Source: Aliivibrio fischeri ATCC 7744 = JCM 18803 = DSM 507 (lineage in GTDB: Bacteria > Pseudomonadota > Gammaproteobacteria > Enterobacterales > Vibrionaceae). From it: a stretch of 64,000 nucleotides of DNA. Positions 4,056 through 26,821 of this stretch are shown in pieces. Below the pieces are notes generated by a model. That model ran no database searches and was not told the origin of the DNA. It saw only the letters and a list, made by a program, of their open reading frames with translations. The position numbers were made by a program, and so were the translations under genes. Positions within the stretch are counted from its first letter, which is position 1. The number at the start of each line of letters is the position of its first letter. The stretch spans positions 1,736,001 through 1,800,000 of the forward strand of contig NZ_CP092712.1 of the NCBI RefSeq assembly GCF_023983475.1. Reading direction: 5' to 3'.

Positions 4056-5216
4056 ATGAGTACACATCAATTTCAGCCAGATTTACCACCACCAGCTAAT
4101 ACCGTTGGTGCAGTAACTTGGCTTAAAAAACATTTATTTAATGGACCAATTAACTCCGTTCTGACTCTTATTATTGCTTATCTTGCAATCGTTGGACTAT
4201 GGAATGTGGTTTCTTGGGGCTTAATTAACGCAGATTGGATAGGAACAACCCGTGATGCCTGCTCCAGTGAAGGCGCTTGCTGGGTGATGATAAACGTTCG
4301 CTGGGACCAATTTATGTATGGTTTTTATCCTAGTGAGGAGTTGTGGCGTCCTCAGCTGTTTTATGGGCTATTGGCAATTTTTGTCGCATTATTAGCTTAT
4401 GAACATACGCCAAAGAAATTTGCGATTTGGTTAGTTTTTGTAAATATCTTTCCTATCTTCGCAGCCTTTCTTCTTTATGGCGGTGTTTTTGGCTTACCGG
4501 TTGTAGACACTCACTTATGGGGCGGATTACTAATAACTCTCGTGATTGCCATTGTAGGTATTGTCGTTTCTCTTCCTATTGGTGTTGCACTGGCACTTGG
4601 TCGACGTTCAGAAATGCCGATCATTCGAAGTATGTGTACCGTGTATATCGAAATCTGGCGTGGTGTACCACTCATTACCGTACTTTTCATGGCTTCTGTG
4701 ATGCTTCCGCTATTTTTATCAGAGGGAATGGAGCTAGATAAACTCTTTAGAGCATTAATTGGTGTTGTTCTATTTAGTGCCGCTTACATGGCAGAAGTTG
4801 TCAGAGGTGGTTTACAAGCGATTCCAAAAGGCCAATACGAGGCTGCAGACGCACTTGGTTTAGGATACTGGAAAAAGATGCGTTTAATCATTTTGCCGCA
4901 AGCATTGAAAATTACGATCCCTTCCATTGTGAATACCTTTATCGGTCTATTTAAGGATACCAGTCTGGTTCTTATTATCGGTATGTTTGATGTGCTAGGT
5001 ATTGGCCAAGCCGCAAACACCGACCCTGAATGGCTTGGGTTTTCAACAGAAAGTTATGTCTTCGTCGCTTTGGTTTTCTGGGTGTTCTGTTTCTCTATGT
5101 CGAGATACTCCATCTACTTAGAAAATAAACTTCATACAGTTTTCCTAATATTGCTTTTCACCTTCAAATGTTGTCAGTATATATTCTATATCTTACTGAT
5201 AGGTTGTAACGGATAG
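4056..5216 (+). CDS. aapM: General L-amino acid ABC transporter, permease AapM, 3-prime end replaced by an island insertion
   Basis: 386 residues as it now reads. The membrane segments and EAA loop (GQYEAADALGLGYWKKMRLIILPQALKI, about residues 257-284) are intact. The family normally stops shortly after YSIYLENKLHTG. Here the match ends at Thr361 (codon 5136-5138) and residues 362-386 are a foreign hydrophobic tail (VFLILLFTFKCC and on to a stop at 5214-5216). The missing end is found at 26822-26835, just before aapP: joining base 5139 to 26822 gives codons for G-H-K-R and stop, for a native 365-residue protein. So the core fold is complete, but the C-terminus gained about 25 residues that could form an extra membrane-associated segment. 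Activity is probable but not certain. Confidence 0.88.
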   Translation: MSTHQFQPDLPPPANTVGAVTWLKKHLFNGPINSVLTLIIAYLAIVGLWNVVSWGLINADWIGTTRDACSSEGACWVMINVRWDQFMYGFYPSEELWRPQLFYGLLAIFVALLAYEHTPKKFAIWLVFVNIFPIFAAFLLYGGVFGLPVVDTHLWGGLLITLVIAIVGIVVSLPIGVALALGRRSEMPIIRSMCTVYIEIWRGVPLITVLFMASVMLPLFLSEGMELDKLFRALIGVVLFSAAYMAEVVRGGLQAIPKGQYEAADALGLGYWKKMRLIILPQALKITIPSIVNTFIGLFKDTSLVLIIGMFDVLGIGQAANTDPEWLGFSTESYVFVALVFWVFCFSMSRYSIYLENKLHTVFLILLFTFKCCQYIFYILLIGCNG

Positions 5217-11541: not shown

Positions 11542-12924
11542 TTATATGGTAGAAAATGCCGAGATTACTCGCTGCTTAAAAGCTCCAAGCCGAAGTTCAT
11601 CAAACGTCCCTTGAGTGCCATAAAGAGCGGTTGAACTGCCTATACCATTTCCCCAAGATACATTTGAACTTGTGTGACTTAGAGGCTCAAGCAAAGGTTT
11701 TTTATCATTCAAACCATTTCGTTTATTAGGGAGTTCAGTCTTGATTGGTTTTCCCATGTTCGCATAAATACATGACTCAGGAATATCGTCTTCAATTCGC
11801 TCAGCAAACTGGATAAGGTTTTGTTCTGCAAATGTAAATAACCATGCTTGTTGAGCCGTGGAAGAGTCGATTCGAAGAATACGTCCTAGCACTTGCCTGA
11901 AATACAGTTCCGTTTTTACAGCGCTCATATGACAACACACTTGAAGTCTAGGGATATCCGTTCCTTCGCTTATCATTCCGACACTAACGATCCATTGAGT
12001 GTCGCTTTGTCGATAACGTTTTATTTCTGCTAGCGGTTCTTCATGTCGATAAGTAACAATTGAAACGGTTTGACCAAATTTCTGAGAGAGAACCTCTTTG
12101 ATTTCGTGTGCATGCTGAACTGACGCAGCAACAATGAGTCCGCCGGCATTTGGAGAGTCTAAGCGCACTCTTGCTAATCGTTCACACCCTAAACTTAGTA
12201 GATATTCTATAGCCTCTTGGTTGTGAATTACACTCTGGTAAGACGCTTTTGTCTGCTTAAGCATCTCTAATATTGATGAAAAAGATTCCACTTTTTCGCT
12301 ACTACTAACAGACAAGTGTTCATTATCAATTAACACGATTTTAGGCGATCTACAGACACCATCAGTAATCGCTTGTTCAAGAGTATATTGGTAATCGACA
12401 AGAAGTTGTCCTTCTGGGTCGCTGTATTCACCCATCACAATAGGTAAAGAGTCTGATCGCCATGGTGTTCCTGAAAGTGCAAGTGTAAAAGTAGCAAGCC
12501 CTTGTATCTTTGTTAGAATTTGCTGCCCCTAAATGTTCGCATTTTCAACCTCAGAGCCAGCGCAGTGGTGTATTTCATCAAAAACAACAAAGACTCTATG
12601 ATTGCGTAATGTTTGCCAAAACTCATCATTAAGGAACTGGATAGATTGATAGGTTAAAGATTGTCCGATAGCTCCCATCCCACCATTAAATGTGCAATTA
12701 AGGAATGATGAAAAGGTTTTCTTAATACTATCAGAAACCGTCAACGATGGTGAAAAGCACAACACAAGATCCACCATGTCGTTTTGTAGCAGTCTTAATG
12801 CAATATTAGCAGCAAGAACCGTCTTTCCAGCCCCTGGTGTAGCTTGGCAAAAAAAATGGGAGCCGTTAGATTGGTATTTCTCCAATGCTCTGTCAGAACA
12901 TTCACTTTGCCACTTTCTCAACAT
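11542..12924 (-). pseudogene. DEAD/DEAH-box helicase interrupted by an in-frame TAG
   Basis: A 461-codon frame from ATG 12924 to 11542 broken once by TAG at 12529-12531 in the same frame. Before the stop: WQSECSDRALEKY (Q motif), Walker A QATPGAGKTVLAA and the DEAH-type box VVFDEIHHCAG. After it, the unbroken frame resumes with GQQILTKIQ, then LALSGTPWRSDS (motif III), IVSVGMISEGTDIPRL (motif V) and FRQVLGRILRID (motif VI). So all superfamily 2 helicase motifs are present in order and a single base change explains the break; W (TGG) or Q (CAG) to TAG is the simplest. The second half can restart only at an ATG at about 12438, giving a piece with no P-loop. Either a recent pseudogene, an assembly error or a suppressed stop. 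The start overlaps the end of the winged-helix gene (ATGTTGA). Confidence 0.82.
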
Positions 12925-13460
12925 GCTTCATTTCCTTCATAAAGAGTGTTAAGAACTTTTGTTAAAACGTTCACTTTACCGAGCAATAAAGCAGCGCGCT
13001 CCTTAGCCTGCTGATGCAAAGGGGCCAGTTTATTTTCTAGCTCAGGAAATCGGGATATGACCGACTGATACTCGTCAACCTCCCCAAGTACTATCTCCAG
13101 TTCGCCCTTGTATTCATTACGCTCATTGTTCAAAATAGAATAGTCTTGAACGAGTGCCTGAGATTTTGTATTTACTTGATTATTCGTGGTTACATTTTTA
13201 TGTAACTCTTTAAATTGAACAGTTTGAAAGTAACGTTTTGCCCGTCCAGATCCTTCAGTTCGCAACCAACATTTCTTTTCAAAGTGTAAAATGGAACGAT
13301 ACACTTTTTTGCGAGCTTCAGCAGAATTGGTGTTCATATTATTAAGTGATAGCCACAAATCTCTAGCTTCTAGCACAGTGAACCCATTTAACCCATTTTC
13401 TATCAATAACTTGTGCATCACCGCACTAATTCTTCGAGACCGTTTCATTTTCAAAATCAC
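12918..13460 (-). CDS. Small basic protein with predicted winged-helix N-terminus and coiled coil, partner of the helicase
   Basis: 180 residues, no family recognised. Residues about 1-75 look like a winged helix (SRRISAVMHKLLIEN, then ARKKVYRSILHFEKKCWLRTEG, then RAKRYFQ as the wing). Residues about 100-170 are a long amphipathic stretch rich in E, K and L that should form a coiled coil. It overlaps the helicase start by 7 bases and so is translated with it. It stands immediately downstream of a double operator that also faces the XRE regulator. A DNA-binding or helicase-loading partner is a reasonable guess but not shown. Confidence 0.65.
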   Translation of the reverse strand: MILKMKRSRRISAVMHKLLIENGLNGFTVLEARDLWLSLNNMNTNSAEARKKVYRSILHFEKKCWLRTEGSGRAKRYFQTVQFKELHKNVTTNNQVNTKSQALVQDYSILNNERNEYKGELEIVLGEVDEYQSVISRFPELENKLAPLHQQAKERAALLLGKVNVLTKVLNTLYEGNEAC

Positions 13461-13550: not shown

Positions 13551-13862
13551 GTGTTATTTATTAGTCCAATCCCAGAGCGACTCAAACAAGCTCGTAAAAA
13601 AGCGAAACTCTCTCAAAAAGCATTGGGAGTGTGTATAGGTATGGATGAAAGTTCAGCAAGCCCTCGAATGAATCAATACGAGAAAGGCAAGCACACCCCT
13701 GATATTCAAACCTTAAAGCTTATCGCTGATGAATTAGGTGTGCCGCTTAATTATTTCTTCTGTGAAGATGAAAGTGCAGCCGAGTTAGCCTGTTTAATTT
13801 CTCAAATGACTGAGAGTGAAAGAAAAAAACTCATTGCATCACTAAATCAAAGTAAAGACTAA
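13551..13862 (+). CDS. XRE-family HTH regulator, possible controller protein of the type I RM locus
   Basis: 103 residues starting at GTG 13551. Residues about 8-68 form a Cro/C1-type HTH domain (ERLKQARKKAKLSQKALG, then MNQYEKGKHTPDIQTLKLIADELGVPLNYFFC). A short acidic/basic tail (MTESERKKLIASL) follows. Size and position are those of control proteins next to restriction-modification genes. It lies 110 bases before hsdM and divergent from the helicase pair, with matching twin operators upstream. I infer autoregulation plus control of the leftward operon, and possibly of hsdM. The start is weakly supported: an ATG at 13540 is out of frame. Confidence 0.82.
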   Translation: MLFISPIPERLKQARKKAKLSQKALGVCIGMDESSASPRMNQYEKGKHTPDIQTLKLIADELGVPLNYFFCEDESAAELACLISQMTESERKKLIASLNQSKD

Positions 13863-13903
13863 AGAAAAAGGGTATATTCCTCCCTAATTACATAATTCAA
13901 TTT

Positions 13904-13946
13904 GTTATGGGTTTCTCAGGAGAATATTAGACCTTCTTCCCATAAC
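13904..13946 (+). promoter_or_regulatory. Inverted repeat upstream of hsdM
   Basis: GTTATGGG (13904-13911) and CCCATAAC (13939-13946) are exact reverse complements separated by 27 bases, inside the leader of hsdM (ATG at 13973). It may be an mRNA hairpin or a second operator. It is unlike the ACTAAG operator, so it is unlikely to bind the same protein. Confidence 0.4.
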
Positions 13947-13972
13947 TTAGCCGCTATCAGGACACTCAAAAC

Positions 13973-15457
13973 ATGTTTGAACAAGTATTCAAGAACGTTG
14001 ATGACATCTTCCATAAAGATGCAGGTTGCTCTTCTGAGCTAGATTACACAGAACAGTCTTCATGGATGCTGTTTTTAAAGTACCTTGACGATCTTGAGTT
14101 CACCAAATCCCAAGAAGCGGAAATGATGATGGAAACTTACGAGTACATCATCGAAGAACAATTCCGTTGGAGTAACTGGGCTGCGCCTAAAGATGCAGAT
14201 GGTAAGTTTGATCATAACAACGCCTTAACGGGTGATGACCTGATGGATTTTGTGGATGGCAAGCTTTTCCCATACTTAAAAGGCTTTAAGCAACGTGCTG
14301 ATAGCGCAAACACCATCGAATACAAAATTGGTGAGATTTTTAGCGAGATAAAAAACAAGATTCAAAGTGGTTATTCACTGCGTGACGCATTGGAAAAAAT
14401 TGATACATTACGTTTTCGCTCACAGCAAGAAAAACACGAACTGAGCCACTTGTATGAAGCTAAAATTAAAAACATGGGTAACGCAGGTCGTAACGGTGGT
14501 GAATACTATACGCCGCGCCCATTAATCCGAGCGATGATCGATGTCGTTCAGCCTAAAATCGGTGAAACTATTTACGATGGCGCAGCAGGTTCTGCGGGGT
14601 TCTTGTGTGAAGCCTTTGATTATCTACGTCAAGGTGGCCGCGAAAAAGTAAAATTAAGCACCACTGACTTAGCGACACTGCAAAAAGATACGTTTTATGC
14701 CAAGGAGAAAAAATCTCTGGCGTATGTTATCGCTATCATGAACATGATTTTGCACGGCATTGAAGCGCCTAACGTATTACACACCAATACACTGTCTGAA
14801 AATCTGCAAGATATTCAACCAAGCAGTCAACACGACATCATTCTGGCTAACCCGCCATTTGGTGGAAAAGAGCGTAAAGAGGTTCAAGAGAACTTCCCTA
14901 TCCAAACGGGCGAAACAGCATTTTTGTTTTTGCAGCACTTTATCAAAATGCTTAAACCCGGTGGCCGTGCGGCTGTAGTTATTAAAAATACCTTTTTAAG
15001 TAATACCGATAAAGCGGCAATTGCACTGCGTAAGGAACTACTTGAAAACTGTAACTTGCATACAGTACTCGATTGCCCTGGTGGTACGTTCTTAGGTGCA
15101 GGTGTAAAAACCGTGGTGCTGTTCTTTACCAAAGGCGAACCTACGCTTAATACATGGTTTTATGAGCTAAATGTCGGTCGTAACATGGGTAAAACAAACC
15201 CACTAAACGACAAAGATTTAGAAGACTTTGTTAAGCTGCAAAAAGCCGCTATGGGTGATTTGAAAAAAGGGGTTTCAGATAAATCATGGTCATTAGCAAT
15301 TAGTGATATTGATGAAAACACCTATGACCTATCGGTTAAAAACCCGAATGTTGCAGAAGACGCACCACTGCGTGAGCCTAAAGCTATTATTGATGACATT
15401 ATTAAACTTGATAAAGAATCTGAAGCGATTTTAGCTAAGATTCAGGAGTTGTTGTAA
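13973..15457 (+). CDS. hsdM: Type I restriction-modification system DNA methyltransferase subunit
   Basis: 494 residues. HsdM_N helical domain over about 1-140 (IFHKDAGCSSELDYTEQSSWMLFLKYLDD), then an N6-adenine methyltransferase domain: NGGEYYTPRPLI (N-terminal to motif I), IYDGAAGSAGFLCEAFDYL (motif I, SAM binding) and the catalytic motif IV ILANPPFGGKE near residue 292. It methylates adenine in the target set by HsdS and is needed for restriction as well. The stop TAA overlaps the ATG of hsdS by one base (TAATG). Intact. Codon use appears more GC-rich than the flanking core genes. Confidence 0.95.
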   Translation: MFEQVFKNVDDIFHKDAGCSSELDYTEQSSWMLFLKYLDDLEFTKSQEAEMMMETYEYIIEEQFRWSNWAAPKDADGKFDHNNALTGDDLMDFVDGKLFPYLKGFKQRADSANTIEYKIGEIFSEIKNKIQSGYSLRDALEKIDTLRFRSQQEKHELSHLYEAKIKNMGNAGRNGGEYYTPRPLIRAMIDVVQPKIGETIYDGAAGSAGFLCEAFDYLRQGGREKVKLSTTDLATLQKDTFYAKEKKSLAYVIAIMNMILHGIEAPNVLHTNTLSENLQDIQPSSQHDIILANPPFGGKERKEVQENFPIQTGETAFLFLQHFIKMLKPGGRAAVVIKNTFLSNTDKAAIALRKELLENCNLHTVLDCPGGTFLGAGVKTVVLFFTKGEPTLNTWFYELNVGRNMGKTNPLNDKDLEDFVKLQKAAMGDLKKGVSDKSWSLAISDIDENTYDLSVKNPNVAEDAPLREPKAIIDDIIKLDKESEAILAKIQELL

Positions 15458-16647
15458 TGGAGTGGTCAAATCAATCTTTAGGTGATTTCTGTGAGGTAAT
15501 TGCAGGTCAATCACCTCAAGGTAAATATTACAATACTGAGGTGGAAGGCTTACCTTTTTATCAAGGGAAAAAGGAGTTTGGTGACCGTTTTATAGGTGCT
15601 CCACAAAAATGGACGACAAAAGTCACGAAAGAAGCACAAGCTGGTGATATTTTAATGTCAGTAAGGGCACCTGTTGGCCCTATTAATTTCTCAACACAGA
15701 ATATTTGTATTGGCCGAGGTCTAGCTGCAATTAGACCGAGTGAAAAGCTAAATAAAGACTTCTTATATTATTACTTATTATCTAAACAAGATGAGATAAC
15801 AGGTAATGAAGGGGCTGTATTTGCATCAATTAATAAAAAGCAAATAGAGTCATTAAGCTTTTCGTATGTAAATTTAGTGGAACAAAAGCGCATTGTGGCA
15901 TTGCTCGATACTGTATTTTCCGACTTAGAACAAACCCGTGCTAAAACCGAACAAAACCTAAAAAACGCCCGCGAGTTATTTGATAGCTACTTGCAACAAG
16001 TGTTTAGCCAGAAAGGTGAAGGTTGGGTTGATTTACCCCTAGGAGATATTTGTAATTTTAAGCATGGATTTGCATTTAAATCTGAGTTTTTTGTAGATAA
16101 ATCGAAGTTGATATTATTAACTCCAGGTAGCTTCTACGAAGATGGTGGATATAGATATAGAGGTGAGAAAACAAAATATTATGAAGGTGATTTTCCTGCT
16201 GAGTATTTACTTAAAAAAGGTGACCTTCTGGTTGCTATGACGGAACAAGCAGTAGGTTTACTAGGCTCTTCTGCTTTAGTACCTGAAAATAATACCTTTC
16301 TTCATAATCAGCGTTTAGGATTGGTTGAACTTACACCTGAGTTTAAAAATAAAGTCAGTTTGAAATTTTTATTTCATCTATTTAATACAAAAAATTTCAG
16401 AGCAAAGGTTCAAGAGACCGCTACAGGATTAAAGGTTCGACATACGTCACCAAAAAAAATGCAGGTGATATCTGTTCCAATTTTAAATGATGTGATTGAG
16501 CAGGAATTGATTGCGCAAAAGTTATTTGAAGCTAAAGAAAGGGTTATTGAGCTTGAAGCAATTTACCAGCAAAAATTAGACTCGATAGACGAACTTAAAA
16601 AGTCCATCTTACAAAAAGCCTTTAGCGGTGAATTAACTCACGATTAA
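15457..16647 (+). CDS. hsdS: Type I restriction-modification system specificity subunit
   Basis: 396 residues with two target recognition domains. TRD1 is about 1-150 (SLGDFCEVIAGQSPQGKYY), then a conserved helical spacer (EQKRIVALLDTVFSDLEQTRAKTEQNL), TRD2 from about 190 (LGDICNFKHGFAFKSEFF), and a distal helical spacer ending SILQKAFSGEL. This is the usual circularly arranged HsdS design that reads two half-sites separated by a gap. The TRDs are visibly lower in GC than the spacers, consistent with TRD exchange. Specificity cannot be deduced here. Overlaps hsdM by one base. Confidence 0.93.
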   Translation: MEWSNQSLGDFCEVIAGQSPQGKYYNTEVEGLPFYQGKKEFGDRFIGAPQKWTTKVTKEAQAGDILMSVRAPVGPINFSTQNICIGRGLAAIRPSEKLNKDFLYYYLLSKQDEITGNEGAVFASINKKQIESLSFSYVNLVEQKRIVALLDTVFSDLEQTRAKTEQNLKNARELFDSYLQQVFSQKGEGWVDLPLGDICNFKHGFAFKSEFFVDKSKLILLTPGSFYEDGGYRYRGEKTKYYEGDFPAEYLLKKGDLLVAMTEQAVGLLGSSALVPENNTFLHNQRLGLVELTPEFKNKVSLKFLFHLFNTKNFRAKVQETATGLKVRHTSPKKMQVISVPILNDVIEQELIAQKLFEAKERVIELEAIYQQKLDSIDELKKSILQKAFSGELTHD

Positions 16648-16682
16648 GCATCAGTCTAAACAGTAAACACAAGGTAAGTGTC

Positions 16683-19256
16683 ATGAGTAGAAATGAATCT
16701 GAAACCCGTGCTGAGTTAATCTCGCCTAAATTGACGGTCGATGGTTGGGGTAAAGCTGATCACAGCATTATTCGCCGAGAGGTGAGTATTACTGCTGGCC
16801 GTATTTTGGGCGGCGGTAAACGTGGCTCAAAACTCAGTGCTGATTACGTTTTAGAGTTTCAAGGCCGTAAACTCGCTGCTGTTGAAGCCAAACGTGAAAG
16901 CCTAAGTTACACCGAAGGTGTACGCCAAGCCAAAGACTACGCCGAGCGTTTACAGTGCCGTTTCGCTTATGCCACAAATGGTCATGACATTTACCAAATA
17001 GACATGCTGACGGGTGAAGAACAGCTCGTTAACCGCTATTTAAGCCCTGAAGAGATGTGGGCGATTGCATTTAATGGTGATGACGGTAAAGCCGAGCCAG
17101 CGTTTACGAGCACTTGGCGTGAAAACTTTGCAAAAATCCCCTTTGAATGTAAAGGCGATTGGCAACCTCGTTATTACCAAGAAAACGCCATTAACCAAGC
17201 GTTAGAGGCAATAGCAAAAGGCAAAGACCGTATTCTACTCACACTTGCAACAGGCACGGGTAAAACCTGTATTGCCTTTCAATTGTCATGGAAGCTGTTT
17301 AATAGTCGTTGGAGTTTACAAGCGGCTAAGAACCCAAGTAATGCTAAAAAACGCCCACGTATTCTATTTTTAGCCGACCGTAATGTATTAACCAAACAAG
17401 CCTTTAACGACTTCGGCGCTTTTGGTGAAGATGCCGTCGTGCGTATTACTCCAAGTGAAATCAAAAAAGCCAAGGGTGTACCTAAAAACGCCAGTATCTT
17501 TATGGCAATTTTCCAAACCCTAATGACCGACTCTGCAAATAAACACAGCTTAAATGCAGAAGAAGTTGAAGATGAAGAATTTGAACAAGCGGTAATAACA
17601 GATACAAGCAACTGTAACTTCAGACAATACCCAGAAGACTTTTTCGATTTTATCATTATTGATGAGTGTCACCGAGGCGGTGCGAATGATGAGAGTTCGT
17701 GGCGCGATATTCTAGATTATTTCTCTCCTGCGGTGCAGTTAGGTTTAACAGCAACACCAAAACGTACTGACAATGCCGATAGTTATAAATACTTTGGTGA
17801 GCCAGTTTACAGCTATACCTTAAAACAAGGCATTAACGATGGTTTTTTAACGCCATTTAAGGTGTATCCGATAGTCGGCACCATGGATGAGTATGTTTAC
17901 ACACCTGGCGATGCTGTTACGTTTAAAGGCGAGCCTGAAGCTGGCAAAGTTTACAAAGAAGGGGACTTTAACCGCATCATAGTAATGCCGCAGCGTGAGC
18001 AAAAGCGTGTGCAGTATTGGATGGATCATATTAACCCATCTGAGAAAAGCATCGTGTTTTGTGCCACACAAGAACACGCAGGTATGGTACGTGATTTAAT
18101 CAATCAATATGCAGTAAAAAAAGGGTGGACGACTAACCCAAGCTATTGTGTGCGTATTACTGCAAATGATGGTGCAGCAGGCGAAAATGATCTTCGCACA
18201 TTCTGTGATAATGAAAAAACCATTCCGACCATTTTAACTACTTCACGCAAGTTATCGACAGGCGTAGATGCCCGTAATGTGCGAAACATTGTGTTAATGC
18301 GTGAATGTAAAAACATGATTGAGTTTAAGCAGATCATTGGCCGTGGTACGCGGATGTATGATGGGAAGTCATTCTTCACCGTGTATGATTTTGTAAAAGC
18401 CCATCATAATTTTTCTGATCCTGAATGGGACGGTGAGCCGTTACCACCAGACGAAAAACCAGAGCAAGAGCCATGTGATATCTGCAATCACAATCCATGT
18501 AGTTGCGTATGTGAAACCTGTGGATTTAACCCGTGTAACTGCGTCATAGAAGATCCTGACGTGCTTTGTGGCAAATGTTTTCACTCTCCTTGTCAATGTA
18601 TTGTAGAACCTTGCAATAACTGCGGAAACTCGCCGTGTAGTTGCCCTATAGGTGATGATGAAGACGATACGGGTAAACCAGAGAAGATATTCATTACGTT
18701 AACCGATGGAAAAGTGCGTCAAATACAGCACATGAAGAGTGTGTTGTTTATGGGAGCCGATGGCGCAATGCTGACAGCCAAACAGTTCGTTGAGCAATTG
18801 TTTGGGGACTTACCAAGGTTTTTTGCTAATGAAGATGAGTTACGTGAGATATGGAGTAATCCAAATACCCGTGAAAAGCTATTAGCTGATTTATATGAAG
18901 CTGGGTACGACGATGAAAAACTCGATAGCATGAAAGATATTATCGATGCCAAAGACAGTGACGTATACGACTTATTATCTTTTGTGGCTTACGCTAGAGA
19001 TACGCATACACGTAAAGAGCGTGTCGCCATTGCGAAACCGGCTATTTCAAGTCATTTTTCCTATAAACAAGTTGAGTTTATAGAATTCATTTTGGATAAA
19101 TATATTGAAGATGGTGTACAAGAACTAGCTGCACAGAAAATGCGTAGTTTGGTTGAGCTTAAATACAATACGATTAGTGATGCAGCCGTAGAGTTTGGAT
19201 CTCCTTTGGCGATACGAGACACGTTTATTGGGTTTCAGAAGTATTTGTATGAGTAG
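16683..19256 (+). CDS. hsdR: Type I restriction-modification system endonuclease/translocase subunit, EcoEI-like
   Basis: 857 residues. N-terminal nuclease domain with D...EAK (SADYVLEFQGRKLAAVEAKRE, about 50-75), RYYQENAINQAL as Q motif, Walker A LATGTGKT near 188, DECH box FIIIDECHRGG near 325, motif III GLTATPKR, and motif VI IIGRGTRMY near 550. The C-terminal helical part resembles the EcoEI R C-terminal family. Residues about 597-655 hold an unusual insert of four repeats of C-x2-C-x3-PC-x-C, which should bind metal. It translocates DNA and cuts when the site is unmethylated. ATG follows AAGGTAA. Its distance of 35 bases from hsdS fits one operon. Confidence 0.94.
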   Translation: MSRNESETRAELISPKLTVDGWGKADHSIIRREVSITAGRILGGGKRGSKLSADYVLEFQGRKLAAVEAKRESLSYTEGVRQAKDYAERLQCRFAYATNGHDIYQIDMLTGEEQLVNRYLSPEEMWAIAFNGDDGKAEPAFTSTWRENFAKIPFECKGDWQPRYYQENAINQALEAIAKGKDRILLTLATGTGKTCIAFQLSWKLFNSRWSLQAAKNPSNAKKRPRILFLADRNVLTKQAFNDFGAFGEDAVVRITPSEIKKAKGVPKNASIFMAIFQTLMTDSANKHSLNAEEVEDEEFEQAVITDTSNCNFRQYPEDFFDFIIIDECHRGGANDESSWRDILDYFSPAVQLGLTATPKRTDNADSYKYFGEPVYSYTLKQGINDGFLTPFKVYPIVGTMDEYVYTPGDAVTFKGEPEAGKVYKEGDFNRIIVMPQREQKRVQYWMDHINPSEKSIVFCATQEHAGMVRDLINQYAVKKGWTTNPSYCVRITANDGAAGENDLRTFCDNEKTIPTILTTSRKLSTGVDARNVRNIVLMRECKNMIEFKQIIGRGTRMYDGKSFFTVYDFVKAHHNFSDPEWDGEPLPPDEKPEQEPCDICNHNPCSCVCETCGFNPCNCVIEDPDVLCGKCFHSPCQCIVEPCNNCGNSPCSCPIGDDEDDTGKPEKIFITLTDGKVRQIQHMKSVLFMGADGAMLTAKQFVEQLFGDLPRFFANEDELREIWSNPNTREKLLADLYEAGYDDEKLDSMKDIIDAKDSDVYDLLSFVAYARDTHTRKERVAIAKPAISSHFSYKQVEFIEFILDKYIEDGVQELAAQKMRSLVELKYNTISDAAVEFGSPLAIRDTFIGFQKYLYE

Positions 19257-19348: not shown

Positions 19349-19840
19349 TTACTCATAATCTGACGCATATGTATCTTCGTAAGAGTGTGAGTAAAATTCA
19401 AATAAGTTGCCAAATGGGTCTTCTAGGTAAACCATTTGTGCTTGCTTTGAATCGTCTTCTGGATGGTATCGCATGATATCCATACGAACCTTACCTCCGA
19501 ACTCTTCAACACGTTTAATAGCTGAATCAAATTGCTCTTTTGGCAGTTGTAAACAGAAATGGAAAATGCCTAGACGAGAGAAATCAACTTCATGACGTTC
19601 TTGGCGATCTTTCATTTCAAATAACTCAACACCAATACCATCAGTTGTTACAAGATGAGCAATGTTAAAACCTTTAAAGCCTTCACCGAATACCGCGATA
19701 CACATGCGGCCAATCGCACTTTCACGCTCTTCAATAACCTTGGTATTGTTCATTACAATGCGAAGACCTAAAGCTTTAGTGTAGAACTCTACTGCTTTAT
19801 CCATATTTCCGACCATTAGGCCAACATGATTCATTTTCAT
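19349..19840 (-). CDS. VOC-superfamily (glyoxalase/dioxygenase-like) metalloprotein
   Basis: 163 residues from ATG 19840, which follows GGAGAAAG; the longer frame beginning at TTG 19852 would put that Shine-Dalgarno inside the gene. Two beta-alpha-beta-beta-beta modules are visible: MNHVGLMVGNMDKAVEFYTKALGL at the N-terminus and LGIFHFCLQLP in the second half. Candidate metal ligands are His in NHVGL, Glu in GVELFEM, His in IFHFCL and Glu in NLFEFY. Members include glyoxalase I, extradiol dioxygenases and antibiotic-resistance proteins; the substrate is not predictable. It lies between the restriction system and the recombinase module of the island, and may be cargo or a passenger from an earlier insertion. 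Confidence 0.82.
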   Translation of the reverse strand: MKMNHVGLMVGNMDKAVEFYTKALGLRIVMNNTKVIEERESAIGRMCIAVFGEGFKGFNIAHLVTTDGIGVELFEMKDRQERHEVDFSRLGIFHFCLQLPKEQFDSAIKRVEEFGGKVRMDIMRYHPEDDSKQAQMVYLEDPFGNLFEFYSHSYEDTYASDYE

Positions 19841-19951
19841 TACTTTCTCCAAATATTTATGTAATTGTTTTGATGTGAGAAGTATAGGTAAATAATCCTG
19901 AAATTAATAATTATCAATAATTATATTTTTGATAACAAAAAATTATAAAGC

Positions 19952-21325
19952 TTAGTGTTTCATGGGTTTTTCTTCAGTGCATTTCTTAATATCGGATTTA
20001 AATGCATTTAATAAACTTTTGATCTCAATAAGAGCTGCAGTAGTTTTTAATTCCTTTTTGAGTATCTGTTCTTCTAATACTGCAATCTGACGCTCCATCA
20101 ACTTTACACTACTTGATAGCGATACTGCGTTATAAACAGTCGTATAGCCATTTAAATCAGCGAACACTAAGTCTATATAAGTATCTAATGAATTTAAGTT
20201 AGTGTGGCCTGTCCATTGCTGCAATTGTTGCTTAAAGGTAGCAGTGTGTAATAAGCGCCTTCTGAAATCATCTTTATTGTTTATTTCAGCATCAGTGAGA
20301 ATTAGTTCTTTGAGTTTATCAGTGACAAATGCATGTCTCCACAAATGAGGGCTGATGGCTCCTTCTATCCCTAATTCTTTCTGCCAGTTGTTTATGTAGG
20401 TTGTCCAAGAGCCTGCTGCAATCGGTTTGCCTGTTGTTAAGCTGATAAAAAGAAAGTCATGTTTAACCTTCTTTTTCTTCATGATTTTTTTTCTAACTTT
20501 TCCGTAATCACTAATACTTGCTAGTAAAATATTGGGGACTGGGACATAACGCGTAGTTTTGTCATCCTGTCGCTTCAAGGTAATTAATTTAAGTGAACCC
20601 GTTCGCCTAGCTTCCTCATAGTCACTCCACTTCATTAAACTCAATTCTTCAACACGAGCTCCAGTTTGTTCCATGGTTGTATAAAGCGCCATATCACGCT
20701 TGCGTTTGTCTTTTGATGTTTGAAGCTTGATATATTGCCAAATTTTTATGGCATCCTCTTCTGATACTGGATGGCGTTTCTTTTTTGCATCTGGAGTAGG
20801 AAAAGCAGAATGAGTGTACTTTACCCCTTCACTAAAACCTTTGTATCCCTCAGGTTTACGTTTGTAGTTTTTTTTCAATATTCGAATCGAGTTGCTTTTA
20901 TCTGTTCCAATAAAATTACTTAGGTCATGGAATGACTGCACAAAAAGCAAAAAATCGATACAACTATGGGCTATGGTAATCACCGTGTTATTCGACTTTT
21001 TCAGCTCACCGTTAGCTTTACGTTCTACCTGTAGCCCCTGAATAAACAGCCTAAAGGTTGAATCATTAAGTTGGCTGAATTTAGTGATGCTAGGTTGATT
21101 CTCAACAAAACGAACCAAGGTATTAATGTTGTGCGCTTTACTACGAAGAGTGCCTTGCTTTTTGTTTGTCACAACCAAATAGTGAATGTAAGCATTTGCC
21201 TCAACACACGGTAGATGGTTGCTGTAAGTTATAAAAGGGATGTTGATGGGCTTGCGAAATTGAAGTTTCTTGTCAAACCCAATATGAGTCCATTGTTTAT
21301 GGTTATTTAGCTTATGTAGTGGCAT
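19952..21325 (-). CDS. Tyrosine recombinase, last gene of the island integration module (GmtY-like?)
   Basis: 457 residues. The C-terminal half has a complete catalytic set: Arg in QTGARVEELSLMKW (about 220), HLWRHAFV (HxxR, about 327), WTGHTNLNSLDTY with the third His and the nucleophile Tyr (about 370-381). A core-binding helical domain precedes it (about 30-170) and a coiled coil follows it (about 400-445). It should cut and rejoin DNA at the island ends. ATG 21325 follows AAGG and overlaps the upstream gene by 14 bases. The set of genes resembles the Gamma-Mobile-Trio (GmtY/GmtX/GmtZ) found in Vibrio defence islands; that assignment is from memory of the architecture, not a search. Confidence 0.85.
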   Translation of the reverse strand: MPLHKLNNHKQWTHIGFDKKLQFRKPINIPFITYSNHLPCVEANAYIHYLVVTNKKQGTLRSKAHNINTLVRFVENQPSITKFSQLNDSTFRLFIQGLQVERKANGELKKSNNTVITIAHSCIDFLLFVQSFHDLSNFIGTDKSNSIRILKKNYKRKPEGYKGFSEGVKYTHSAFPTPDAKKKRHPVSEEDAIKIWQYIKLQTSKDKRKRDMALYTTMEQTGARVEELSLMKWSDYEEARRTGSLKLITLKRQDDKTTRYVPVPNILLASISDYGKVRKKIMKKKKVKHDFLFISLTTGKPIAAGSWTTYINNWQKELGIEGAISPHLWRHAFVTDKLKELILTDAEINNKDDFRRRLLHTATFKQQLQQWTGHTNLNSLDTYIDLVFADLNGYTTVYNAVSLSSSVKLMERQIAVLEEQILKKELKTTAALIEIKSLLNAFKSDIKKCTEEKPMKH

Positions 21326-21890
21326 CTAGAAACCTTGTAAATTCAGTTATAAACTTATTAAAATCATCAGATTGTTGTGCGTGACTGAGTTTCACTTCGA
21401 GTCTTGCGTTTACTTCTTTGTACAATTCGATACGCTGGTCAAGAGTACCGTTGTGCACTGCCAATGTTTTAGCTTGAGAGTGAAGTTCATCAACTACTGT
21501 TGTTAAATTAAAGCAAGCAAAGCGCATTGCAATTAGCTGCTCTTCCAACTCATCTATTTTTAGTTTTAAACCTGTTATAGATTGCTTGTTTGGTTTTCCT
21601 GTTTTTTCTGAATGCAGAGCAGCTTCTATAGCAGCCTTAGCGTTAATTCTTAACTTATCCAGACCTAAAAAACCTCTATCCAAAAGAGCTTCAGAGACGC
21701 TTTTTACGGTATTCAGCGAACATGAGAATATTTGTCTATCTGGGTTTTCAAGTTTCGCTATAGCTGCTTGAGATTTCAGTGCCTTATATAGCTCAGCATC
21801 GCCTTTATAGCCATGAGGATCTTTGATAATTTCGAGTAGAAGCTTTTCGGTTTCAAATACCTTAGTTTGGTTTTTTTCTTTTGCTTTCAT
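21312..21890 (-). CDS. Small coiled-coil protein of the recombinase module (GmtX-like?)
   Basis: 192 residues from ATG 21890, which is preceded by AGGGGA at proper spacing; the longer frame starts at 21908 within the end of the upstream gene. No known domain. The middle and C-terminus (about 100-190) are helical with heptad character (LKLKIDELEEQLIAMRF, then LYKEVNARLEVKL). It contains no recombinase residues. Its position between two tyrosine recombinases, with overlap to the next gene, recalls TnpC of Tn554 and GmtX, accessory proteins that help the recombinases; that role is inferred. Confidence 0.7.
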   Translation of the reverse strand: MKAKEKNQTKVFETEKLLLEIIKDPHGYKGDAELYKALKSQAAIAKLENPDRQIFSCSLNTVKSVSEALLDRGFLGLDKLRINAKAAIEAALHSEKTGKPNKQSITGLKLKIDELEEQLIAMRFACFNLTTVVDELHSQAKTLAVHNGTLDQRIELYKEVNARLEVKLSHAQQSDDFNKFITEFTRFLDATT

Positions 21891-21900
21891 TGAGAATCCC

Positions 21901-24345
21901 CTAATCAAGGTCTTTTATTTTTAGTATTAAGTTAAATGTTCGTACTTCGTCACCATTAGCTTCAGTAATCGTAAAAAACTCTGGCTCTAATGTGATCGAA
22001 CCTACTTCAAGCATATCTATGATTTCATTTTCGATGGCTTGTTCTTTCTGTATTTGACTGATATGCGGTATGGTTTTATAGGATTCATCCTTATAGTATT
22101 CACTGGCATCACTCAAAGTACTGAGCTCTACAGCTTTAGCTTCGTTGCCTAACACACGCCTTGCAATGACTTTACGCAATTCTTCAATTTCGATGGTATT
22201 GTGAAGTTCGGATGAAGGGTCAATTATGCTGCGAGTTATGGTTGTGGCTTTAACACCTGTAAGAACTACACCTGACTCTGATTCTGAAATATAGTGATAT
22301 AAGTGCTCTATGTCTGAATGAGCGAGCATCCAACGTAAAGACTCCATTCCTTTAAAGCGCTTAGACCAGAAAAAAACCATTGCAAAAAATCGTCTAAGTT
22401 GATGTTGGCGTACATAGTTACGGCGATATTCACCTGTGTCATATTGCACCAAAGGTGTTTCAAAGTAGTCACATACAGCATTAAGGTGGTTATTAAAGCT
22501 TCGGTAGTTCAAACTACTGAACCTACAAGTCCTCGAAGTTAAACAATTAAATAGAGATAGGGGACCGTTGTTTAATTTTCGTCGAATGACTTCAATGTTG
22601 AACTGCTCTAGTTGCCAAATCAGTTTTGCGATAGACCGTGGTATTGGTCTCTTTGCTGTTTCATTTCTTCCTTTGTTTCCACCAATCCCTGTCTTTTTAA
22701 TATTGAACTTTAAGCTGTAGTTGGATGTTGATCCTTTATCGGTGAATGGATTGATATTGGGTGACAAGTTACCATGAGCTTTAAGTTTTATGAGTTCATC
22801 TTGTCTCCTTGCCATAATTACACCCACAAGGATTTGAATAGAGCCTTGCAGAATATCAAATAGATCGAACAGACTCTCGTTAGCCCTGATTCTTTTGTGC
22901 CGATCTAGAATATTTATATCAAATACGTGAATTTGCTTAATGCCCTTAGCAAGGTAATCACTGCTCAAAAAATTCATTGCTTCACTATGGAACCAATCTT
23001 TACGTTCCGTTGTTGGTAAGTTATCTCGTAGAACTTCGGTAAATTCCTTCACTTTTTTAGCCGATTTAGACCGGTTTTTACGTTTTGCTACCGACTTCGA
23101 TGCCCCCTTCGTTACGCTTTGTAAAATCTCACTGAGTAGAGATGTTTCATTTGAATTAGTTACGTCATCTTTGGGTAAATGTTCTTTGGTAAACTCGTAA
23201 CATTGGCGAATTAAATTAAAAACAAACTCAGGAGAAAGTGTGCGTGTCCTTCCTGCCTTTTTCAGCTTAACAAGTTCATTTTGACTCACACTGACTGCGG
23301 TTATGTGTTGACCGAGAATATTGGGAGAGCAGGCATTATTTCGTTCAAAGTTGGTATAAATAAAGCGAATAGCATTTATGTAGTCTGAAATTACTTTCTG
23401 AGTTAGCTCAGAACTTGTATTTTTATTTGCTATAGCAGCGTATTCTGTCGTGAGTAAATGACCTTTTAAGCTCAACTCAGGGTATGCAGGAAGTACAAAA
23501 TCGGTTGATAGGATGGTGCCATTGAATAGTAATGAAGCCAAAATAGAGGAATTTCCTTGAAGTCTAGGAGACCCACCCTCGAGCCTGTAGTAACCTTGCT
23601 CATAGAGCCACGCACAAGCTTTGGCTTTATCATTTAATGATAGCTTTATTTCATCACTAGCTAGGCTCTTAGATAAATATGGGTATTTTTTTTTGAATTG
23701 TTCCGCTTGCTCACTTGTAATGTTTAAGCTTTCTTTGTTTAAAAGTTTCTCGAGATTAATATCAGGTCTATAAATTCCTGAAAAACTTCCTTGGATGGCT
23801 ATTTGTATAAGGATATTCAGCCAAAAATCATCGTTTACATTGACTAATTGAAACTTTGCAAGCTTTAATGATTTAGAGTGTAGTAATATTGCGTTAACTA
23901 AGTGAATGACAGTATTAAACCTTCCATATGCGGTTCTTACGGCAATTAATTTTCCGCCATTTTCTAACGGATTATCGATAGCGACTATCCAATATTTGAA
24001 ACTATTTAATAGTTTTTTGTGCTTGATGGCTGTTAGTCGCTCGCCATCGTCAAGATAAACAGCACTCCAATTTAACTCCTTTGTTTTAGTATCAAATTTT
24101 TTCCTTGTTTTTTGTTCATCACTGGTAAAGTCAATTAACCATACATCATCATCAAAATCAGAAAGTAACCACCAAGGTTTACGGTCATTGTATTCATAAA
24201 CTCCTGTGTATATATTGGTTAGTTTTTGTAATGCACGATAATCATTGCTGGCAATTGACTCTTGAATCAGTTGCTCTAACTCTTGCGAACCCAAGCTTTC
24301 AAAACTCAGCTTTTCATCAAAAATTTTCTCGATAAGTCTTAACAT
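21901..24345 (-). CDS. Large tyrosine recombinase of the integration module (GmtZ-like?)
   Basis: 814 residues. The catalytic signature sits in the C-terminal third: Arg in MARRQDELIKLKAHG (about 508), HQLRRFFAMVFFW (HxxR, about 645) and MLAHSDIEHLYHYI (His and Tyr nucleophile, about 674-684). The long N-terminal part has no recognised domain and a basic stretch at about 415-435 (SKSVAKRKNRSKSAKKV). Length and motif spacing match the large second recombinase of multi-recombinase elements. ATG 24345 lies inside the end of the upstream gene (7-base overlap), with GGAG before it, so translation is coupled. No disruption seen. Confidence 0.82.
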   Translation of the reverse strand: MLRLIEKIFDEKLSFESLGSQELEQLIQESIASNDYRALQKLTNIYTGVYEYNDRKPWWLLSDFDDDVWLIDFTSDEQKTRKKFDTKTKELNWSAVYLDDGERLTAIKHKKLLNSFKYWIVAIDNPLENGGKLIAVRTAYGRFNTVIHLVNAILLHSKSLKLAKFQLVNVNDDFWLNILIQIAIQGSFSGIYRPDINLEKLLNKESLNITSEQAEQFKKKYPYLSKSLASDEIKLSLNDKAKACAWLYEQGYYRLEGGSPRLQGNSSILASLLFNGTILSTDFVLPAYPELSLKGHLLTTEYAAIANKNTSSELTQKVISDYINAIRFIYTNFERNNACSPNILGQHITAVSVSQNELVKLKKAGRTRTLSPEFVFNLIRQCYEFTKEHLPKDDVTNSNETSLLSEILQSVTKGASKSVAKRKNRSKSAKKVKEFTEVLRDNLPTTERKDWFHSEAMNFLSSDYLAKGIKQIHVFDINILDRHKRIRANESLFDLFDILQGSIQILVGVIMARRQDELIKLKAHGNLSPNINPFTDKGSTSNYSLKFNIKKTGIGGNKGRNETAKRPIPRSIAKLIWQLEQFNIEVIRRKLNNGPLSLFNCLTSRTCRFSSLNYRSFNNHLNAVCDYFETPLVQYDTGEYRRNYVRQHQLRRFFAMVFFWSKRFKGMESLRWMLAHSDIEHLYHYISESESGVVLTGVKATTITRSIIDPSSELHNTIEIEELRKVIARRVLGNEAKAVELSTLSDASEYYKDESYKTIPHISQIQKEQAIENEIIDMLEVGSITLEPEFFTITEANGDEVRTFNLILKIKDLD

Positions 24346-26693
24346 GTTATTGCTCCACGAATTAAGTTAATATCTAATGCGTTTTGATTAGCGTCATGGA
24401 GCATTGATGCAAGCTCTGTATCAGAACGATACTGCTCAGTAGAAAGAGAGTTAAGGATAAACACCGCTGACTCGTACCAATCGTTTACAATATCTAAAAA
24501 TGTATGTTTATTTTCTTCATTTTCTACAATCGCCCTAATTGCTATGAGTAACTGTAATAACGATGTCGAAATTAGAAATGAGATTTCGTCGAAGCTGGAC
24601 TCTTTTATGCTTCTTTCATCAGTTTGCTCTTGAAGTCTGCAATCAAAGTGAGGAGGCAGATGACCAAGACCATGATTACGAAGAAACTCTTCAATATCTT
24701 CAGCCGTCAAATCGGTAGCATCGAGTAGATATGGTGAGTTCTTCATCGCTTCAAGAATAATTGCATTCTGGAATTGACGTATCCAACGATCATTAAAAAA
24801 GTCCATGAGTGGTTTGGGGAGGTATGAAGCCAATAATACCAAGTCTTTTTTCTTGTGTCCCAAAGCCTCAGCTACAGCATCCATAGAACAGGTTTCAAGG
24901 TAAATCTGAAGGCCTCTATGTTTACGAATTGAGCGTAGAGATATTAATTTGGCGAGCTTTATTGCATTACATGGTGTCATTAAACTACTAGATTCAACTA
25001 GTAATGGGTTACTTATCCACTCTAAATATTGCGAAGCATTATTGATAATATTTATAGAGCTGATATGTTTGACCTCTGTTGTCGATGCAGTGAGAAGCAT
25101 TTTTCTCCAAGCGGCCTTACCACTTGCCTTTAATTGCTTACGAGCAAACGACGTATGCTCAATCAAATACTCGACCACAACTTTTGAACGATCATTTAAA
25201 ACAACGGATTGCTGGGCAGTGATTATTCCTTTCCTATCTTTGTTGCTCACCGCTATATACTGATTATTCGATTTCTTAAAACCTGCTTGTTTTCCATTTT
25301 TATCGTACAGTTCCCATGTTTCTAGCCATGCCGGAGTAATTTCAGGGTGTTCCATTACAAGTAATGTTAATAGGACTGCCAAAGAGGAAGTTGTAGGAAG
25401 ATTTAATTCTTCCAACAAAATACTATTTTTACCTTGGAAACCTAAAAAATTAATGTAATTACCAAATTTTTTCGGATTAAAACCATGTGTATAAAAAGTT
25501 GCTACTGTATTGGCAAGGTTATTCTCACCAACAAAGCCTCGATATTTATGGTCGTTTTTAGTTCCCAAAAGGGGTTTAGCATTGCCTGTTTTGATAAAAA
25601 TAGCGTTTCGTTTAGTTCTTTCTTTAAATTCTTTAAATTTTGTCATACATATTTGGTGAATGTACGCTAAGTCGTCATCAATCTTTGATTTGATAATTGA
25701 TATCGCTTCTTCATCGTTAATTTTAATAGGTATATCTACAAACCAACGTTGCTTTTCCTTTTCCGTCGCTTGAGCGCCTACTGAAAATGTTGGAGCGGTA
25801 TCTTTGGGATATTTCCACTTTGGAACAATAAACGGTTTTATGGGGAGATCAAATATACCAGTATCAATAAAGGATTCAGTATATATCTTTACAATTTTGT
25901 GCCAATAAGAAAAAAATGTTTTGGGCTCATTACCTCTCGATAAATGTGAGGCGAACCATACATTCATTATATCGTTGAAGAAGCTTTGAACGTGGCTACG
26001 GCTAAGACATTTTTTAATTTCATCGTGATTTGGACATACTAAAACCATCGCTTCAAAAAACGCTTTTATATATATAACATAAGTTTGTAAGCTTCTTTTC
26101 TTTTGGGTATGCCCATAGTCAATTAATGCCTTGTGAACTTGCGCCGTAAATTCAACCCCATATGTGGTATAGATAGAATTAAGGTGTAACTCAAATTCAG
26201 TACCATCTTTTGAGAGTACTTGCCATCCGTTAAGGTAATTAAGTTTATTTCTATCAACATTCAACTCGTTGAAGCTATTTATACACTTTTGTATATCATC
26301 ACTGACTTCAAGCCTACTTATTTTCAAGTCATTGAAGTTAAGGTGCTTATCCGCCGCAATTGTTTTGAAAATTTTTTTAAATACACACAGGTATATGTAA
26401 TTAGTGCTGAGTAAACTTTGATTTTCTTGATATATAAAGCCAACAAATAGTTCAAAGTGTTTGTTGAAATTATCATCACAATTTAATATATCAATTGCGG
26501 TATAGCTGTTAGGTTTAGTTAAGAAACAGAATGATGAGTAAATATTCAAAAAAAACTTTTTCTTGTAATTAACAGTGCTAGTTTGGACTATCCGAGCAAA
26601 GTAATCATAATATTCAGGTGATAACGCATTACTTAGCAAAGATAGTTCCCTTAAGATACTTGCTCTCATATCTAACCTTTCATTTATTGACAT
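24339..26693 (-). CDS. Divergent tyrosine-recombinase-like protein, first gene of the integration module
   Basis: 784 residues with no obvious full-length family. Residues about 578-622 look like the end of a tyrosine recombinase: LRSIRKHRGLQIYLETC, then AVAEALGHKKKDLVLLASYLP, with Gly-His and a downstream Tyr at the usual spacing. The box that should be HxxR reads L-R-S-I-R, so one active-site histidine is apparently replaced. It may be a catalytic or a structural partner. First gene of a four-gene run with 7-18 base overlaps. The longest start is ATG 26693, but ATG 26669 (residue 9) has AAAGG upstream and may be the real one. A TTGACA -35-like hexamer is at 26730-26725. Confidence 0.72.
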   Translation of the reverse strand: MSINERLDMRASILRELSLLSNALSPEYYDYFARIVQTSTVNYKKKFFLNIYSSFCFLTKPNSYTAIDILNCDDNFNKHFELFVGFIYQENQSLLSTNYIYLCVFKKIFKTIAADKHLNFNDLKISRLEVSDDIQKCINSFNELNVDRNKLNYLNGWQVLSKDGTEFELHLNSIYTTYGVEFTAQVHKALIDYGHTQKKRSLQTYVIYIKAFFEAMVLVCPNHDEIKKCLSRSHVQSFFNDIMNVWFASHLSRGNEPKTFFSYWHKIVKIYTESFIDTGIFDLPIKPFIVPKWKYPKDTAPTFSVGAQATEKEKQRWFVDIPIKINDEEAISIIKSKIDDDLAYIHQICMTKFKEFKERTKRNAIFIKTGNAKPLLGTKNDHKYRGFVGENNLANTVATFYTHGFNPKKFGNYINFLGFQGKNSILLEELNLPTTSSLAVLLTLLVMEHPEITPAWLETWELYDKNGKQAGFKKSNNQYIAVSNKDRKGIITAQQSVVLNDRSKVVVEYLIEHTSFARKQLKASGKAAWRKMLLTASTTEVKHISSINIINNASQYLEWISNPLLVESSSLMTPCNAIKLAKLISLRSIRKHRGLQIYLETCSMDAVAEALGHKKKDLVLLASYLPKPLMDFFNDRWIRQFQNAIILEAMKNSPYLLDATDLTAEDIEEFLRNHGLGHLPPHFDCRLQEQTDERSIKESSFDEISFLISTSLLQLLIAIRAIVENEENKHTFLDIVNDWYESAVFILNSLSTEQYRSDTELASMLHDANQNALDINLIRGAITC

Positions 26694-26789: not shown

Positions 26790-26821
26790 TTGACTAGTTT
26801 TTAATATTGGGATTAGTAGGC
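26790..26821 (+). promoter_or_regulatory. Possible outward promoter at the island right end
   Basis: TTGACT at 26790-26795 is followed after 18 bases by TAGTAG at 26814-26819, pointing toward aapP. The -10 is poor, so this is only a candidate. It is of interest because aapP was cut off from its native operon promoter by the island. Confidence 0.3.

Follow-up and report, generated by a model that had tools for sequence, protein, structure and literature searches.

A 21.7-kb island with a four-gene recombination operon, most likely copied from one chromosome of Aliivibrio fischeri to the other

A 64,000-nucleotide stretch of Aliivibrio fischeri ATCC 7744 (contig NZ_CP092712.1, positions 1,736,001 to 1,800,000; the window, hereafter) contains four overlapping minus-strand open reading frames (ORFs), encoding proteins of 784, 814, 192/198 and 457 amino acids (aa), at one end of a mobile element. 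It is likely, in our judgement, that these four genes form the recombination operon of a site-specific element of the same kind as Tn554, the strand-biased circularizing integrative elements (SEs) and GInt, and that they represent a separate third lineage. Comparison of insertion sites suggests that the 21.7-kb island driven by these genes was recently copied between the two chromosomes, with the copy in the window's own contig (C1) most likely derived from that in the other replicon of the genome (C2).

The whole element comprises 21,676 bp (window 5140-26815) and is 100% identical to a twin at C2:737834-759509, as defined by a blastn block in the compared stretch C2:732001-792000, beyond which the flanks differ. 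When 149 genomes were searched with the 814-aa protein, 10 had matches, among them this genome with two identical places, one per contig. The recombinase operon occupies the right end of the element and cargo takes up the remainder. The two ends form an imperfect inverted repeat that agrees at 10 of 14 positions (counted by eye), in keeping with the imperfect inverted terminal repeats of 13 to 19 bp found in SEs; a direct-repeat comparison of the two end regions yielded just one 15/16 match well inside and no terminal repeat. Sequence similar to the operon-proximal end, TCCCAATA or TCCTAATG, lies ahead of the first gene in close relatives. Three related insertions (L052, on the same contig as G063, L055 and G053) share one target gene, which we take from a protein motif to be comM, and the distal end TTTTCCTAATAT is also present at two of them, with TTTTCCTAATATCA at the third.

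The six bases adjoining the two copies indicate a direction of transfer. At the C1 site the order is CTTCATACAG, element, GTAGGC, GTCACAAGCG, and at the C2 site it is AATCACGTAGGC, element, AAGTAC, ATCATGG. In congeners lacking the element, the C1 site has the sequence CTTCATACAGGTCATAAGCG (L189) or a close variant of it in the 7 of 11 loci that the pattern picked up; at the C2 site they read AATCACGTAGGCATCATGG in L200, L201 and L202 (L203 was missed by the pattern) and AATCACGTTGGTATCATGG in L205, L209, L210 and L211 (four loci on the other strand were left out). Because of these empty sites, GTAGGC is recognizable as native in C2 and foreign in C1, and the C1 copy therefore most likely came from C2, bringing with it the six bases beside the cargo-side end. 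Six bases native to the operon-distal flank of the C2 copy are thus found again beside the operon-proximal end of the C1 copy, where they are foreign. Insertion at C1 changes only the final codons of an ABC transporter permease gene, which in the empty site of L189 ends as LHTGHKR-stop, and insertion at C2 cuts a glyoxalase gene, parting its first codons from the remainder. A relative whose 814-type protein is 74% identical (L046) occupies the glyoxalase site used by the C2 copy. In the three comM-type insertions, the native gene sequence continues as far as the distal end, and the six bases adjoining the operon end are alien to it, as judged from the continuity of the gene itself, without empty sites.

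The same genome holds a second type of element, an SE, which is present once per replicon and has a 15,418-bp block that is identical in the two copies (L212 with L213, L214 with L215; C1 about 2851997-2867413, C2 about 187894-203310). In this pair the six bases ATTTGT adjoining the intA end of the C1 copy recur at the intA-distal end of the C2 copy (one chance-shared edge base allowed, and without empty sites), conforming to the published SE rule (PMC10214605). In both types, therefore, the six bases next to one donor end reappear at the opposite end of the newly inserted copy (GTAGGC, from C2 left to C1 right, for the window element). The polarity is reversed: whereas SEs leave the foreign bases at the intA-distal end, which is operon-distal, the window element takes them from the operon-distal flank and leaves them at the operon-proximal end. 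Carriage of six donor bases to the new junction also agrees with the rule given for Tn554 (PMC10214605, PMC12486829), and a likeness to Tn554 suggested in a first-pass annotation of the sequence thus holds at the level of mechanism.

We propose that the 457- and 814-aa recombinases would exchange one strand at both element ends and so close the element into a circle, its joined ends separated by a 6-bp spacer derived from the distal flank. The circle would then insert at a new site with a 6-bp overlap, such that the target's own six bases stay at the distal end and the six brought-in bases are placed at the operon end, and the donor copy would remain, either through replicative excision or through restoration by the sister chromosome. 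The 784-aa protein, which keeps the nucleophilic Tyr and lacks Arg I and the HxxR His, is most likely a mostly inactive subunit that enforces strand bias, and the small protein may bridge the recombinases.

Table 1. Features of the element and its insertion site (window coordinates)
Feature	Position	Strand	Remarks
Host gene at the C1 insertion, ABC transporter permease (PF00528)	4056..5139	+	Split just ahead of the final codons
Native 6-bp target core ATACAG, retained at the distal end	5134..5139	.	Empty site in L189-L193, L195, L198
Distal (cargo-side) end	5140..5153	.	TTTTCCTAATATTG
Ppl-type defence protein, 903 aa	5606..8317	+	PADLOC Ppl, 2.8e-264
788-aa protein, DUF4238 with SEC-C motif	8983..11349	-
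180-aa protein and superfamily 2 (SF2) helicase gene with one in-frame stop	11542..13460	-
Xre-type control gene and type I restriction system HsdM, HsdS, HsdR	13551..19256	+
Glyoxalase gene beside the recombinases	19349..19852	-	TIGR03645-like, below model cut-off; 79% (aa) to the gene interrupted at C2
Gene 4, 457 aa, ordinary tyrosine recombinase (IntA/GinA-like)	19952..21325	-	PF00589; hhalign GinA 1.1e-22, SE IntA 1.3e-16
Gene 3, small partner (Srap/GinD/TnpC-like by position)	21312..21908	-	198 aa from TTG, 192 from ATG at 21890
Gene 2, 814 aa, large catalytic tyrosine recombinase (IntB-like)	21901..24345	-	Complete catalytic set; Z 13.0 to XerA; hhalign SE IntB 3.8e-8
Gene 1, 784 aa, degenerate tyrosine recombinase (Tfp-like)	24339..26693	-	AlphaFold2 model, structure alignment, residue census
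Operon-proximal end	26802..26815	.	Inward reading TAATCCCAATATTA; 122 bp before the 784-aa gene
Foreign 6-bp footprint GTAGGC	26816..26821	.	Identical to the native six bases adjoining the C2 copy

The first-pass annotation had read the four genes as two canonical recombinases, one atypical recombinase and a small partner, a description borne out by the conservation of both residues and gene order. Only the 457-aa protein passes a Pfam cut-off (PF00589, 4e-14); the 784-aa protein has no Pfam match, and all matches of the 814-aa and 192/198-aa proteins fall under the curated cut-offs. Residues were counted over distinct sequences within set length limits, with truncated and identical sequences dropped. 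In the 814-aa protein, R514, E517, K551, H648, R651, H676 and Y685 are each kept in 75 of 75 relatives, and among 72 relatives of the 457-aa protein the catalytic set is nearly invariant (R224 in 72, K251 in 71, H327 in 71, R330 in 72, H374 in 68 and Y383 in 72). For gene 1 the annotation had noted a Gly-His...Tyr tail without the His of HxxR, and the family as a whole agrees: K485, R590 (Arg II) and Y624 are kept in all 69 relatives and H613 in 61 of them, while the five commonest residues at position 587, three before R590, are R, T, A, S and P, with no His. At positions 445-463, where box I is expected from our reading of the alignment, Arg is outside the five commonest residues throughout. 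The four-gene order is retained in 69 of 79 related loci fetched from genome contigs, far beyond chance; eight of the other ten are short or cut at contig ends, and two (L122, L123) have no recognized small gene.

Structure prediction, the check that the annotation had proposed for the 784-aa protein, returned a recombinase fold; by the residue counts above, Lys, Arg II and Tyr are present in this protein and Arg I and the HxxR His are not. The AlphaFold2 model (predicted local distance difference test 86.4, predicted template modelling score 0.52) aligns over residues 179-641 with Xer/Cre structures at Z about 11, a level that helical proteins can reach unspecifically. The structures include a staphylococcal integrase (Z 11.2, 204 residues, root-mean-square deviation (rmsd) 7.4), XerA (Z 11.1, 274 residues, rmsd 13.7), XerH (Z 10.9, 295 residues, rmsd 6.7), Cre (Z 10.5, 277 residues, rmsd 7.5) and the Tn1549 integrase (Z 10.5, 281 residues, rmsd 7.4). 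The alignment with Cre terminates at 641 to 341, such that Y624 would presumably stand opposite Cre Y324 if the alignment is ungapped there. Among the 50 matches shown for this model, 49 are recombinases, type IB topoisomerases, protelomerases or the repressors SroF, YopR and MrpR, which have the recombinase fold as well. The 814-aa model aligns with XerA over 181 residues with an rmsd of 2.9. VIA re-alignment after a plain Foldseek search ranked recombinases at the top for both models, and PDB sequence profiles gave chance matches only. According to the models, then, the 784- and 814-aa proteins both have the tyrosine-recombinase fold.

Records of lineage loci bear the names Vibrio, Photobacterium, Pseudomonas, Acinetobacter, Methylophilus and others. 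The 814-aa protein matched 13 of 72,556 plasmid records, two of them over at least 80%, and the plasmid records examined annotate genes 1 to 3 as hypothetical protein or integrase. Relatives were encoded in none of the 165 stretches of viral contigs that matched a pattern. The quartet region of a Providencia plasmid recurs with at least 99.8% identity in records from Thalassolituus, Colwellia, Neiella and Acinetobacter (L038 3576-4439; L098, L099, L100, L101), and in the Providencia plasmid a class A beta-lactamase gene directly precedes gene 1; an attempt to fix the ends of this near-identical element was unsuccessful. In the Acinetobacter plasmid pOXA58_010030 (L037 14718-16581), IS17 apparently interrupts gene 4, which is followed by Qat anti-phage genes, and in Pseudomonas gessardii (L093 2-5350) SE genes, three of them in view, adjoin a quartet of this lineage.

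The glyoxalase gene beside gene 4 occupies the same place as in L046 and is a homolog of the gene cut by the C2 copy. In the 55 relatives whose sequence extends far enough to either side, we compared the protein fragments adjoining the operon end with the DNA that follows gene 4. Matches within the same element were found in 10 of 55, versus 26 of 2,702 pairs with different targets (Fisher 7e-10; the pairs are not independent), most of the 26 coming from L089 and L117. One of the ten, L078 (40 aa, 100%), may be an assembly repeat and was not relied on; counted by target cluster, with L078 included, 7 of 29 have an own-target match. Six gene families are carried, and the carried genes are full length: glyoxalase (165 aa in L046), ArfB (137), TopB (646), PhoH2 (461), NADAR-type glycosidase (328) and, in four Pseudomonas-type loci, HrpB (839 to 867). 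The host gene beside the operon is partial, with HrpB present from residue 126 to 156 on, ArfB from 73 on, TopB up to 209 and PhoH2 up to 318; both halves of the interrupted gene are visible in L115 and one side only elsewhere. Tn552-II has been reported to carry a gene resembling its target gene, for which a role in rescue was suggested (PMC12486829). These comparisons suggest that the home targets are conserved genes and that, in some elements, a full-length homolog behind the operon probably compensates for the damage.

The glyoxalase gene and the other homologs could instead be ordinary cargo with no compensating role, an explanation that we regard as possible although doubtful. It would account for the 45 of 55 relatives that have no target-gene copy in the stretch compared, including all nine loci of the comM-type cluster (0 of 9), for L117, which carries a homolog of the comM-type gene even though its own flank gave no match, and for the window copy, which now sits in a different gene. 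It accounts less well for the excess of own-target matches, for their spread over six gene families and for the pairing of full-length copies with cut targets.

We also considered whether the quartet belongs to a very divergent SE with reshuffled genes, given that SEs (SE-6283, SE-6945, SE-Pda04Ya311; PMC10214605) are highly diverse, with products of SE-6283 and SE-6945 being 20 to 27% identical (PMC9345347). Our SE references were pAQU1 (L128) and 20 stretches around Tfp matches, found by searching 150 genomes of the window's family, 35 of which matched. The 457-aa protein matches SE IntA (hhalign 1.3e-16) and the 814-aa protein SE IntB (3.8e-8), with a weak match of the 784-aa protein to Tfp. 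Gene by gene, the quartet thus looks like the SE quartet in the order 2-3-4-1. This correspondence, together with the shared 6-bp footprint principle, favors an SE origin. However, all 20 SE stretches open with intA-tfp and 19 show intA-tfp-intB-srap (two of these with one split gene; the 20th is cut), whereas the order here is Tfp-IntB-Srap-IntA, and the difference holds in every complete case, 69 loci here versus 19 SE stretches plus pAQU1. Among the 40 best matches of the SE profiles (down to E 0.0017), gene 4 of this lineage and the IntB-like gene of L122 and L123 (8.8e-4) appear, and neither gene 1 nor gene 3 does. A maximum-likelihood tree of the ordinary recombinase (gene 4, IntA, GinA), the only gene treed, resolves three groups (ours 98/94, SE 100/100, GInt 100/98) in a sample of 37 of our 72 sequences, 21 SE and 9 GInt, and places ours with GInt on one side and SEs apart (100/100; midpoint root for drawing only). 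With the opposite footprint polarity added, we think it unlikely that the window element is an SE.

Membership in GInt (Tn6571-type, ginABCD) is a further possibility that we judge very improbable. Ten GInt loci served as references: two E. coli genomes in which ssb has an insertion at its end (449 of 5,375 genomes with a match had no place covering 80%, and two were used) and eight plasmid loci. A search of 185 class-level genomes with E. coli GinC gave no match, in a sample that contained no known positive and is hence uninformative. Gene 4 matches GinA (1.1e-22), the cargo is similar, and GinC has been described as lacking the first arginine (PMC5385486), as does the 784-aa protein. On the other side, the order is A-B-C-D in 7 of the 10 GInt loci, the others being two without a recognized D and one with A moved, and it differs from the order here; the 784- and 814-aa proteins match neither GinB nor GinC significantly (E 0.01 or worse); and the GInts examined form their own tree group. 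Genes 1 to 3 gave no significant match to GInt proteins, the GinD alignment used being inflated (387 columns). In the same profile comparisons SE Tfp matched GinB (4.8e-8) and not GinC (0.05), unlike the equation of Tfp with GinC in PMC10214605.

Several points weigh against a separate third lineage moving as proposed. The match of the 784-aa protein to SE Tfp is weak (hhalign E 0.0017, probability 16%), SE Srap is the best hhalign partner of the 198-aa protein without reaching significance (E 0.076; a profile match of gene 3 to one Srap gave 0.007), and non-partners match as well (457 to SE IntB 6.3e-6, 457 to GinB 4.1e-6, 814 to SE IntA 5.3e-4). Judged by gene 4, the element lies nearer to GInt than to SE, and its displaced first gene has a parallel in a GInt-like locus of a Rhizobium plasmid (L181 3497-8675), which has B-C-D in order with A behind D on the opposite strand. 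Plain Foldseek against the PDB returned no match at E up to 0.001 for either the 784-aa or the 814-aa model, and the 45 relatives without a target-gene copy belong here too. The origin of the footprint is traced in one copy pair, and movement, circle and strand bias are inferred, as is the mechanism beyond the footprint.

We give almost no credence to an assignment to Gamma-Mobile-Trio or RIT elements, to whose architecture the first-pass annotation had likened the genes, with one extra large gene ahead of a trio. A row of several recombinases and defence cargo would fit, and a similar pair of a 180- to 191-aa protein and a helicase gene lies near two loci (L133, L134; ORFs by eye) that match NF040692, a 207-position recomb_assoc model that we take to be GmtX. 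NCBIfam includes this model and GmtY (NF040693), and neither was listed for the four proteins at E up to 1 (HMMER filters drop most matches above 0.1); NF040692 had no match across this genome, and no GmtZ match was listed, the presence of a GmtZ model in the library being unconfirmed. Profiles of this lineage against the ORFs of three NF040692 loci reached only E 0.006 and 0.01, to the adjoining recombinase gene, with 1e-5 to an unrelated integrase gene in one locus. At the sequence level tested, with no listed model match and no clear profile similarity, Gamma-Mobile-Trio is refuted. RIT elements have three recombinases of 315 to 410 aa each (PMC10214605), sizes that differ from 784, 814 and 457 aa with a 192/198-aa protein. 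Since the quartet corresponds to that of SEs gene for gene, with the order changed, an extra gene ahead of a trio is the wrong frame.

The cargo fits the annotation's view of a multi-recombinase mobile island with anti-phage genes, as it includes the Ppl-type protein and the type I restriction system. The SF2 helicase gene (window 11542-12924) has a single in-frame stop after codon 131. Homologs of the 180-aa protein and helicase pair occur together in four related elements, and the pair appears to be a module common to the cargo of both element kinds, this lineage and the NF040692 loci.

In the open-access PubMed Central literature SE, GInt and Tn552-II are described and this gene order or lineage was not found; most subscription papers lie outside that search. 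Some members may be listed in the supplementary lists of the SE survey. The Pseudomonas islands of PMC12595487 and PMC8373256 have one integrase each; in the part available, PMC8373256 mentions islands in hrpB and does not name this module, and individual members may thus have been encountered earlier. Tentatively, and with somewhat less than even confidence, we suggest a widespread third quartet lineage that combines a 6-bp copy rule of reversed polarity, a nucleophile-keeping degenerate recombinase acting as strand-bias factor and repeated protection of the host by a full-length replacement gene. Defined ends, the 6-bp rule and target sites make the elements of this lineage countable, and the presence in one genome of two element types whose footprints have opposite polarity offers a direct comparison for strand choice by four proteins. 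The target-gene homologs suggest that site-specific elements can enter useful genes at little cost. Such elements carry defence genes here, and the quartet of the Providencia plasmid adjoins a class A beta-lactamase gene.

Among known systems, Gamma-Mobile-Trio shares with this lineage recombinases plus a small protein and, according to the first-pass annotation, defence cargo, and differs in the absence of model and clear profile matches and in gene order (432, 1270 and 207 aa in L133). Tn554 and Tn552-II resemble the window element in that they carry donor bases, six or seven in number, to the new junction and encode a small partner, TnpC, to which gene 3 corresponds by position; unlike them, the window element has four genes instead of three (tnpA, tnpB and tnpC in Tn554), and they have no Tfp-like protein. 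GInt similarly has a four-gene operon at one end, with one atypical recombinase and one small protein, inserts at chosen genes, carries defence and resistance cargo and provides the closest relative of gene 4, but its atypical gene is third, genes 1 and 2 here match neither GinB nor GinC, and the targets identified here are genes other than ssb. SEs likewise combine two canonical recombinases, a recombinase-fold protein and a small protein with imperfect terminal inverted repeats and a 6-bp footprint that passes from donor flank to new insertion, and in neither were mobilization genes recognized. The lineage described here differs from them in an atypical protein that keeps Lys, Arg II and Tyr, in its separate tree group, and in a footprint that originates in the operon-distal flank and comes to lie beside the operon-proximal end, opposite to the SE arrangement.

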